Positions 17,743 to 20,486 of a stretch of 35,279 nucleotides of DNA are shown here, piece after piece. The position numbers and the translations under genes are program-made. How positions within the stretch are numbered: the first letter of the stretch is position 1; every line of letters starts with the position of its first letter. The stretch is from positions 1-35,279 of the forward strand of contig JACPXR010000051.1 of the NCBI GenBank assembly GCA_016196465.1, read 5' to 3'. The notes under the pieces are model-generated. The model ran no database searches, was not told the DNA's origin, and was given only the letters and a program-made list of their open reading frames with translations. Source of the stretch: Candidatus Omnitrophota bacterium (GTDB taxonomy: Bacteria; Omnitrophota; Gorgyraeia; 1-14-0-20-64-10).

Positions 17743-17806
17743 TTGACAGGGCCGGGGTCATCCTTGATAATGAGACTCGATCTCAACTGAATGAACATGA
17801 GTCTCA
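17743..17806 (+). promoter_or_regulatory. Putative promoter/operator for the Fur-family gene: TTGACA (17743-17748) - N17 - GATAAT (17766-17771) with overlapping inverted repeats
   Basis: Consensus -35, 17-bp spacer and good -10. TGAGA-CTCGA-TCTCA (17771-17785), and 8-bp inverted repeat TGAGACTC (17771-17778) / GAGTCTCA (17799-17806) spanning the start codon. Confidence 0.65.
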
Positions 17807-18324
17807 ATATCGAACATCCCAAAGGCGCCGAGGTGATCCTCTTTCCTCGGCACGCCCGCCGCCCTGAGCAGTTCAAGGCGTGGCTGGCCAACATCCTCCA
17901 GACCTTCCAGGAGCACCTGGGCCGGCAGGGCCTGAAATTGACCCGCCAGCGGGAGGAGATCCTCCGGGCCCTCATGGCGGCCGACCGGCACCTGGGGATG
18001 GAGGAGCTCTACAGCTCGCTGAAGAAGCAGGACCCGACGATCGGCCGGGCCACGATCTTCCGGACGGTGAAGCTCCTCCAGGAGTGCGGGCTGGTGGCCG
18101 AGGTCGGCTCGGTGAACGGGGCGGCGAAGTTCGAGCTCAAGGCCGACCGCCCCCACCACGACCACATGATCTGCGTGGAATGTTCTCGGATCACCGAGTT
18201 CCAAAGCCCCATGATGGAGCGCTTTCAGGACGAGGCGATCCGCCGTCACGGCTTCACCGCCCTCTGGCACCGGCACGAGATCTTCGGCCGCTGCCGCGAC
18301 TGCTGGAAGAAACGGAACCGTTAA
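17791..18324 (+). CDS. Fur-family transcriptional regulator with N-terminal extension
   Basis: GLKLTRQREEILRALMAADRHLGMEELYSSLKKQDPTIGRATIFRTVKLLQECGLV, HHDHMICVEC, C-terminal CRDC. About 45 residues precede the winged-helix core. Confidence 0.9.
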   Translation: MNMSLNIEHPKGAEVILFPRHARRPEQFKAWLANILQTFQEHLGRQGLKLTRQREEILRALMAADRHLGMEELYSSLKKQDPTIGRATIFRTVKLLQECGLVAEVGSVNGAAKFELKADRPHHDHMICVECSRITEFQSPMMERFQDEAIRRHGFTALWHRHEIFGRCRDCWKKRNR

Positions 18325-18341
18325 CCGAAAGGAACCTTCGC

Positions 18342-18569
18342 TTGAAATCTTGGAGGGGCATCGGAGTGGTCCTTTTGTTCCTGGCCGGGTGCGCCCATGC
18401 CGGGGAGACACCCGTTCGTCTGGCCTCGGCCTGTCCCGCGAACCCCCCCGGTCCCACGGTCCTGTGCAAGCACTGCAACTGCTACATGCCGGCCGACGCA
18501 GACCCCGCCGCGCCGTGCACGGTCTGCAACTGCGGCTACCGGAACGCCCAGTGCGTCCGGGGAAAATAG
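18342..18569 (+). CDS. Small Cys-rich lipoprotein (75 aa), putative metal-binding
   Basis: TTG start after AAAGGAA (18328-18334). MKSWRGIGVVLLFLAGCAHAGETPVRLASACPANPPGPTVLCKHCNCYMPADADPAAPCTVCNCGYRNAQCVRGK. Lipobox LAGC and duplicated CxxCxC. The ORF track shows it only as the tail of a longer frame (17880..18569). Confidence 0.7.
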   Translation: MKSWRGIGVVLLFLAGCAHAGETPVRLASACPANPPGPTVLCKHCNCYMPADADPAAPCTVCNCGYRNAQCVRGK

Positions 18570-18570
18570 G

Positions 18571-19332
18571 ATGACAAAAGTTCAATCGCTGCTGATCGTG
18601 GGGCTCTCCGTCGGAGCCGCCTTGGCGTTTCCGCCGAAACCGGCCTTCGCCCACCTGCGGGATTACATCTTCAACCAGGGGTACCACACCTCCCGCAAGG
18701 GGGAGTTCGAGATCGAGCTGCACAACGACCTTAACTTGAAGGAGGCCGACAACGACGAGAGCTACAGCTCCAAACACCAGGTGGAGCTAGAATACGGCGT
18801 CACGGATCACCTTCAGCTGGCGACCTACGAGGTGTTCAAGTGGGACCGCAAGGATGATTTCGAGCGGGACGAGCTGAAGGTCGAGGGGAAGGTTCGCCTT
18901 CTGGAAAGCGGCGAGCTTCCGGTGGACATCGCCCTCTACGGGGAGTATAAGAATCCCAACGGGCACCACGACCAGAGAAGCGACGCCATGGAGCTCAAGC
19001 TGATCTTGAGCAAGGATCTCGGCCCCTGGAACGTCACCGGGAACCTGATCACGGAACGGAAGATCAACCAGCACGATCCCTGGGCCTTCGAGTACACGCT
19101 GGGCATCAGCCGTCCGGTCCATCCTCAGGTCCGGCTGGGCCTGGAGATCAAGGAGGGCCTGGGGACCACTGAGGATCTGGGAGTGCGCCGGAAAGGACAC
19201 AAATTCCAGCTGATGCCGATGGTGGCCTGGAGCCCGACGCCCCACAGCCGGGTCCTCTTCGGGCCGGCCTTCGGCCTGACCCGGGCCAGTGACGACATCC
19301 AGTTGAAAAGCATCGCGTCAATCGAGTTCTGA
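18571..19332 (+). CDS. Exported protein, probable outer-membrane beta-barrel of unknown function
   Basis: Start trimmed to the ATG at 18571. Signal peptide MTKVQSLLIVGLSVGAALAFPPKPAFA, alternating amphipathic strands (FEIELHNDLNLKE, QVELEYGVTDHLQLATYEVF) and C-terminal aromatic residue (SIEF). Confidence 0.68.
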   Translation: MTKVQSLLIVGLSVGAALAFPPKPAFAHLRDYIFNQGYHTSRKGEFEIELHNDLNLKEADNDESYSSKHQVELEYGVTDHLQLATYEVFKWDRKDDFERDELKVEGKVRLLESGELPVDIALYGEYKNPNGHHDQRSDAMELKLILSKDLGPWNVTGNLITERKINQHDPWAFEYTLGISRPVHPQVRLGLEIKEGLGTTEDLGVRRKGHKFQLMPMVAWSPTPHSRVLFGPAFGLTRASDDIQLKSIASIEF

Positions 19333-20486
19333 TGACTCCCCACCTCTCCGGACCGTGGCTCTTGGGGCTCCTCGCGGGAGGCACGATCTTCCTGGGGCTT
19401 CCGATCGCCCGCTTCAGCCGGGTCTCCTCCAAAACAAAGGCCTTTCTCAACGCCGTCTCCACCGGGATTCTGATCTTCCTCCTCGTGGAGATCACCGGAC
19501 ACTTGATCGAGGAGATCGAAGAGCTGGTCGAATCGGCGATCGGGTCGGGAGGAAACCTGAGCGCGGCGCTGCGCTATGGAGGGCTCTTTGCCCTCGGGTT
19601 CTCGGCGGGTCTGTTGAGTCTCGTCTACTTTGAGAAACGGTTTCTCGGCTCGATCAAGGACCAGGAGACAGCCCCGGCCAGAAAGGCAAAGCAGTTGGCG
19701 ATGATGATCGCCGTGGGCTTAGGGTTGCACAATCTCAGCGAGGGGTTGGCCATCGGGCAGGGGTATGTCGGCGGAGCGATGCAGCTGGCGTGGCTGATGG
19801 CGATCGGCTTCGCCCTTCACAACGCTACGGAGGGTTTTGGGATCGCAGCCCCTCTCTCCGGGCATCGGGCGAGCTGGGGGTTTCTCGGAACCGCGGGCTT
19901 GATCGCGGGAGGGCCCACGTTCCTCGGGACCCTCATCGGAAGCGGGTGGACGAACAAGTCAGTCGAGATCTTCTGTCTGGCGCTGGCGGCCGGAACGATC
20001 CTCTACATCATCGGGGAGCTGCTTCACCTGGGCCGGCTCCTGAAAGGGGAGGCGATCGTGGAGATGGGGCTCTTGGTGGGGTTCTTCGTCGCCATGGCCT
20101 CGGACTTCACCATCTCCGCGGCGATGGAGATGAACGCCCCCCACGCCCCCCGCCACGGCGGCTATTTCGGGGACGCCAACGACCTCTACCACTATGAACT
20201 GATCCCCGGGACCGACAACCGGCTCCTCCTGTACGTCAACGATCAGATGAACCGGCCTCTCGAGGCCTCGACCCTCCAGGGCCGCTGGACCCTGAACCCG
20301 GACTCCAGCGCCCCCACGATGGGCTTCTTTACCCCCTCCAGGGAAGGAAACTTCCTCGTGGGGGAGCTTCCGGGAAACTTCCGGAACGACCCCATCCACG
20401 TGAGGGTCGAGGTCCTCAAAGGAACCGCTTGGGCCCCCATGGAATTTTACGTCCCCCGCAAATCAAGCAAGTCTCCGGAAAAGTAA
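19332..20486 (+). CDS. ZIP-family metal transporter with C-terminal extracytoplasmic HGG/YHYEL domain
   Basis: Two ZIP motifs GLGLHNLSEGLAIGQ and GFALHNATEGFGIAAP plus hydrophobic helices. C-terminal extension APRHGGYFGDANDLYHYELIPGTDNRLLLYVNDQMNRPLEA...VPRKS. Confidence 0.85.
   Translation: MTPHLSGPWLLGLLAGGTIFLGLPIARFSRVSSKTKAFLNAVSTGILIFLLVEITGHLIEEIEELVESAIGSGGNLSAALRYGGLFALGFSAGLLSLVYFEKRFLGSIKDQETAPARKAKQLAMMIAVGLGLHNLSEGLAIGQGYVGGAMQLAWLMAIGFALHNATEGFGIAAPLSGHRASWGFLGTAGLIAGGPTFLGTLIGSGWTNKSVEIFCLALAAGTILYIIGELLHLGRLLKGEAIVEMGLLVGFFVAMASDFTISAAMEMNAPHAPRHGGYFGDANDLYHYELIPGTDNRLLLYVNDQMNRPLEASTLQGRWTLNPDSSAPTMGFFTPSREGNFLVGELPGNFRNDPIHVRVEVLKGTAWAPMEFYVPRKSSKSPEK

Follow-up and report, generated by a model that had tools for sequence, protein, structure and literature searches.

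The window, a 35,279-nucleotide stretch of a Candidatus Omnitrophota genome (G000, 83% complete), contains four genes on the + strand in the order fur, Cys-rich lipoprotein, predicted outer-membrane barrel and ZIP permease with a C-terminal domain (Table 1). The genes are separated by 17 bp (fur/lipoprotein) and 1 bp (lipoprotein/barrel) or overlap by 1 bp (barrel/ZIP), and 42 bp lie between the ZIP gene and rplM. The flanking genes, as named from their sequences, are truA upstream and rplM-rpsI-argC downstream. No + strand terminator was found in the region by a terminator scan. Coordinates, profile matches and gaps agree with the consecutive, close-packed + strand genes described in an earlier sequence-only reading of this DNA. 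The closest named relative, a Candidatus Omnitrophota groundwater MAG, shows the same gene order (locus L002).

Table 1. Features of the fur-lipoprotein-barrel-ZIP cassette in the window.
Feature	Position	Strand	Remarks
Sigma-70-type promoter TTGACA-17-GATAAT	17743..17771	+	11/12 consensus positions
Fur-box-like operator 1 ATGAGACTCGATCTCAA	17770..17786	+	overlaps -10; f1 relatives have this box ahead of fur
Degenerate second box ATGAACATGAGTCTCAA	17791..17807	+	right half conserved
fur, Fur-family repressor (putative), 177 aa	17791..18324	+	Pfam FUR 8.9e-33
Cys-rich lipoprotein, 75 aa, TTG start	18342..18569	+	LAGC lipobox, CxHCNC-MP-CxxCxC-C
Predicted outer-membrane 12-strand beta-barrel with signal peptide, 253 aa	18571..19332	+	AlphaFold2 mean pLDDT 88
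ZIP permease, 384 aa	19332..20486	+	Pfam Zip 4e-11; HNLSEG/HNATEG/GELLHLG conserved
C-terminal beta domain of ZIP (HGG domain)	20112..20483	+	pLDDT about 90; placed after helix 8

The consensus-like promoter proposed from the sequence alone was recovered as the sole such match in 3.1 kb, where 0.3 would be expected, and the inverted repeats noticed there correspond to the Fur-box-like operator. In locus L130 a second, perfectly inverted box lies 21 bp downstream of the first, and the window retains the right half of that copy. A 17-bp box of the TTGA-n9-TCAA type was detected near the -10 element in 28 of 28 loci with fur as the first gene, and was absent from four loci in which fur sits later in the cluster. 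The boxes range from TTGATAACGATTATCAA (L038), which is near the textbook Fur box, to TTGAGACTnAGTCTCAA in family f30 and TGAGACTCGATCTCA in family f1. The shuffle p was at most 0.03 in 27 of the fur-first loci and 0.053 in one, these values being descriptive, as the Fur-type box score was devised after the sites had been seen. Plain scoring for palindromes of any sequence (8-1-8) was set aside; it did not single out the window operator (p 0.46, versus p 0.01 with the Fur-type score). The genome-wide operator search in the family of the window revealed few sites beyond the fur locus, and matches with one or two mismatches are probably mostly due to chance (0-3 per genome in controls with the reversed pattern). 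In G059 one 1-mismatch site lies in front of another iron-like locus (L134:899-5955), a candidate second Fur target with genes for a DUF6662 barrel, an FMN-binding-like protein, an ApbE-like protein, ExbB, ExbD and TonB-like proteins.

The metal-site residues of the regulator (H67, E115, H122-H125, E143, H160) and its structural CxxC pairs (C128/C131, C168/C171) are invariant, and the Pfam assignment confirms the Fur-family membership suspected before. The best PDB matches of the Fur profile were Fur structures, and the NCBIfam equivalog cut-off was reached in no case. PerR-type sensing was set aside, as Glu and not Asp occupies the PerR-diagnostic positions. The protein presumably represses the operon.

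Judging by its conservation, the short lipoprotein frame is more than a chance open reading frame, since six other genomes have homologues with the same cysteines at this position and since it was detected in only five of the 285 sampled genomes of the phylum, always at the cassette locus. In all seven genomes the gene is flanked by fur and the barrel gene, its product keeps the seven cysteines of the CxHCNC...CxxCxC...C block, and a lipobox (LAGC and equivalents, GC invariant in 7/7) follows a hydrophobic stretch, as expected for the Cys-rich lipoprotein proposed earlier. Close barrels of at least 49% identity (window, G285, G065, G059, G266, G209 and, with the contig ending within the gene, G286) were always preceded by Fur and the CxHCNC lipoprotein, which was never found alongside barrels of at most 34% identity. 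Small YHS-type Cys proteins adjoin the barrel at L040:7008-7310, L042:8254-8484 and L047:8602-8877 and are perhaps counterparts of the lipoprotein.

The third gene product, previously described as a barrel-like protein with signal peptide, was modelled as a 12-strand barrel whose nearest folds are FapF, COG4313 and KdgM at about 10-13% identity. Its score against COG4313 (PF13557) was 17.7 bits and missed the gathering cut-off of 22, and the barrel alignment gave no match when searched against PDB sequences. Homologues were detected in 30 of the 285 Omnitrophota genomes and were missing from the plasmid collection searched. In G088 an FTR1 permease and a barrel homologue, which retains a signal-like sequence, share one open frame of 519 aa (L057:1533-3092) next to a cupredoxin-like gene; this frame may be either a true fusion or the result of a lost stop or an assembly error.

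The ZIP protein scored 43.0 bits against Pfam Zip (PF02535; gathering 35.1), with the metal motifs HNLSEG, HNATEG and GELLHLG present, and 44.8 bits (9e-12) against the ZupT equivalog NF003243, missing its cut-off of 252 bits. The model (overall pLDDT 74, lower confidence in the membrane part) comprises eight helices and aligns to the BbZIP fold. Together with the Pfam match it corroborates the claim of a ZIP transporter with an extra domain at its C-terminus. In the model this domain is probably periplasmic, because it is placed after helix 8 and the usual ZIP topology puts the C-terminus in the periplasm. No Pfam match was obtained for the domain, and its Foldseek matches were mostly immunoglobulin-type folds. 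CrdA, a copper protein, was matched only weakly (9ll4, E=0.08), and no argument was based on this match. Six genomes have the domain as part of the ZIP protein (window, G285, G065, G059, G113, G266); as a separate signal-peptide-type protein it was found beside FTR1 (G064) and in TonB cassettes (G190, G287). The separate homologues L096_7, L097_7 and L132_18 lie in Fur iron-type loci. Given this unfused, periplasmic-type form of the domain, a putative role in metal binding or delivery fits better than sensing.

The order Fur-lipoprotein-barrel-ZIP is kept in five genomes (window, G285 with L002/L130, G065, G059, G266), and in a sixth (G286) the contig breaks off within the barrel gene. The lipoprotein and the barrel therefore do co-occur with ZIP and Fur in related genomes, the point on which the sequence-only reading had staked its proposal. 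A neighbourhood of four unrelated genes brought together by chance or drift would be in line with the housekeeping genes around the cassette and with the many tightly packed genes of this organism. However, such an explanation has a negligible probability considering that the order holds down to 53% barrel identity, in two families and at different chromosomal sites, and that Fur lies at most three genes from the barrel in 23 of the 31 barrel loci across the phylum (those of the 30 genomes plus L002).

The inner-membrane partner beside the barrel varies. ZIP was found at five loci, FTR1 at four and FeoB at 13, where 0.26 FeoB loci would be expected by chance (counts not corrected for relatedness). 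Twelve of the 13 FeoB placements match FeoB_C (Pfam) coordinates, the thirteenth genome (G181) being FeoB_C-positive, and all four FTR1 placements match Pfam coordinates. In several of the 13 loci FeoB is split into a G domain and a membrane part. The Fur-barrel pair with FeoB or FTR1 occurs in more distant Omnitrophota; in G209 the slot behind Fur-lipoprotein-barrel is filled by FTR1 instead of ZIP, a natural swap, and FTR1 further adjoins the barrel in G028, G248 and G088.

Based on gene content and neighbourhoods, the cassette may be understood as an iron-uptake operon that is autoregulated and repressed by Fur, with ZIP serving as the inner-membrane ferrous-iron permease, a reading to which we assign a probability of roughly 70%. 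The metal is most likely iron, as inferred from the context, since the slot of ZIP is taken by FeoB or FTR1 in relatives. The initial proposal of a trans-envelope metal cassette is upheld in so far as the cassette is Fur-linked and offers one part per envelope layer, and its unspecified metal is narrowed to iron by FeoB and FTR1 in the relatives.

Zinc is the main alternative substrate, given that it is a frequent cargo of ZIPs and that plasmid relatives of the protein lie in heavy-metal loci. In a system for zinc or manganese uptake the regulator would be a Zur- or Mur-like sensor of the Fur family, and ZIP would import Zn2+ or Mn2+ via the same envelope parts. ZIP proteins are commonly zinc permeases, the window ZIP is weakly similar to ZupT, some of its nearest plasmid relatives are annotated as zinc permease, and neither ZnuA nor Nramp was found in the incomplete genome of the window, so that a part in zinc supply is conceivable for its own ZIP. 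Taking into account that FeoB and FTR1 lie beside the barrel-Fur pair elsewhere in the phylum, that FTR1 replaces ZIP in G209, that the operator boxes are Fur-box-like and that the Fur profile fits Fur structures best, zinc or manganese uptake nevertheless appears unlikely. Furthermore, ZnuA-type binding proteins were detected in G059, G065, G113, G242 and G288, which include the most complete f1 genomes, so that zinc import has another candidate there.

The proposed iron-uptake role of ZIP is also consistent with the distribution of other importers. FeoB_C was detected in 213 of the 285 genomes and not found in G000, G059 (98% complete), G065 (95% complete), G242, G157 and G266. Of the nine genomes with a close ZIP, six thus lack it (Fisher p=0.009), as do all five genomes with the lipoprotein among the 285 sampled (Fisher p=0.0009), both values being uncorrected for relatedness. 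A clear FeoB G domain was detected in only one of the nine f1 genomes (G113). A point against the proposed role is that G113, G146 and G258 have FeoB alongside a close ZIP. In the window genome FeoB_N matched only at general-GTPase level; in the family genomes, matches weaker than 1e-16 were disregarded and attributed to general GTPases such as Era/Der. Nramp was found in none of the nine f1 genomes and FTR1 in none of the five f1 genomes sampled. The cassette need not be the sole iron route of this organism, since a TonB-dependent receptor is encoded elsewhere in the genome (L144:1348-3321, contig 92).

In the proposed iron-uptake operon, Fur-Fe2+ would bind the operator over the -10 element at high cytoplasmic Fe2+ and switch off its own operon, which would be expressed when iron is low. 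The barrel may then pass Fe2+ or a small iron complex across the outer membrane, the Cys-rich lipoprotein may bind the metal or hold it reduced at the periplasmic face, and the C-terminal domain of ZIP may take it over. ZIP itself would carry Fe2+ into the cytoplasm, substituting for FeoB or FTR1.

It is conceivable, though less likely than not, that the operon takes up iron while the barrel does not serve free Fe2+, but a hydrophobic or chelated iron compound or another outer-membrane task, with ZIP using iron released in the periplasm. The 12-strand fold is similar to COG4313 and FapF, and such relatives are thought to pass hydrophobic molecules, as proposed for the COG4313 channels (PMC4493636), or amyloid subunits, not ions (PMC5557850); sister cassettes moreover employ TonB receptors for complexes. 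On the other hand, the ferrous-iron permease FeoB adjoins the barrel at 13 loci, no siderophore genes were seen next to the barrel, and the TonB-free outer-membrane protein FupA of Francisella can serve Fe2+ (PMC4905997).

The nearest plasmid relatives of the ZIP, located in heavy-metal loci near cadmium, CDF and P-type ATPase genes, together with ArsP_1-type permeases observed near a few barrels, might indicate metal export or heavy-metal resistance, in which the parts would sequester and remove excess metal with Fur acting as a stress regulator. This seems highly improbable in view of the Fur-box repressor sites and the FeoB, FTR1 and TonB neighbours; moreover, established members of the ZIP family carry metal toward the cytoplasm. 

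In a Deinococcus plasmid (L153:5944-7755) the annotation makes one ZIP relative part of a multicopper oxidase protein; in an Arthrobacter plasmid (L154:4394-6750) another adjoins a multicopper oxidase protein and a metal-dependent regulator, arrangements which presumably resemble ferroxidase-permease pairs.

Within the sample, close ZIPs (E < 1e-100) were confined to families f1 and f30, where they also end cassettes of other composition. The same ZIP terminates Fur-DUF2292-TonB receptor-ExbB-ExbD-TonB cassettes (G146, G258 and G157, the latter with the Ton genes between Fur and receptor) and a Fur-linked porin/FMN-binding/ApbE cassette (G113, G242). The best models for the TonB receptors of these cassettes were those for siderophores and ferric citrate, below cut-offs. 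The absence of TonB or ABC parts stated initially holds for the cassette of the window, but not for the sister cassettes with the same ZIP, which use TonB/ExbB/ExbD; cassettes with the separate extra domain likewise use TonB and, in two genomes, also an ABC transporter (G190, G287). In family f1 the barrel, TonB and porin/FMN modules occupy one slot between truA (left border in 7/9 genomes) and rplM (right border in 5/9) with related Fur proteins and operators. In G288 only the operator and Ton genes are visible before the contig ends. We give even odds to the broader proposal that in two related Omnitrophota families this ZIP is the main ferrous-iron importer, mostly without FeoB, and the core of exchangeable iron cassettes. 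Within one family, at one site and under one Fur, modules of barrel and CxHCNC lipoprotein, of TonB receptor-ExbB/ExbD/TonB and of porin and flavin proteins would interchange, and the extra domain, also unfused, would be a new iron-delivery domain.

Compared with known systems, the cassette shares Fur control and the cytoplasmic-membrane Fe2+ step with FeoAB(C) operons, and the same barrel stands beside FeoB at the 13 related loci, whereas the window has a ZIP permease, no GTPase and the additional lipoprotein and barrel. Francisella FupA-FeoB likewise combines a dedicated outer-membrane protein with an inner-membrane Fe2+ permease without TonB; however, its permease is FeoB and a plug domain is predicted for FupA (PMC4905997), and the comparison made here is a functional analogy. 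The cassette would work in a Feo-like or FupA-FeoB-like manner, yet it is no Feo system, as no FeoB was found in the 83% complete genome. With E. coli ZupT and BbZIP (5tsb, 8ght) the window ZIP shares eight helices and the ZIP metal motifs; it differs in its HNxSEG/HNxTEG motifs, an identity of about 22%, the extra C-terminal beta domain and its place in a Fur operon. FTR1/EfeU, which occupies the ZIP slot in G209, adjoins the barrel in other genomes and has the extra domain beside it in G064, belongs to a sequence family unrelated to ZIP. The barrel model resembles the COG4313 channel (4rl8, PMC4493636) and FapF (5o65) in its 12 strands and apparently in a segment before strand 1, but the identity is low, the window barrel is Fur-linked, and the same cargo is unlikely. 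In the literature searched, which covered ZIP/TonB/Fur combinations and iron uptake in Omnitrophota, no description of the cassette arrangement was found.

ZIP at the FeoB/FTR1 position beside Fur would show that the core ferrous-iron importer of bacteria has been replaced by a non-orthologous protein. As ZIPs are usually annotated as zinc transporters, this clade would also correct automatic annotation: a widespread family labelled 'zinc transporter' probably provides a main importer of iron in the cassette-bearing Omnitrophota, a little-studied phylum with almost no cultured members. The cassette further defines three uncharacterised parts, namely the 12-strand Fur-linked barrel (about 10% of the sampled Omnitrophota genomes), the CxHCNC lipoprotein and the probably periplasmic HGG domain.

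A ferritin-like gene was observed divergent to fur in f30 loci (L093:12302-12721, L095:12398-12817, L035:2476-2895). Small DUF2292 proteins were encoded repeatedly between Fur and the outer-membrane gene of iron-type loci (L033:7679-7915, L131:5892-6068, L129:2345-2521, L132:8819-9037, L093:11448-11654), and this recurrence suggests a link of that uncharacterised family to iron.
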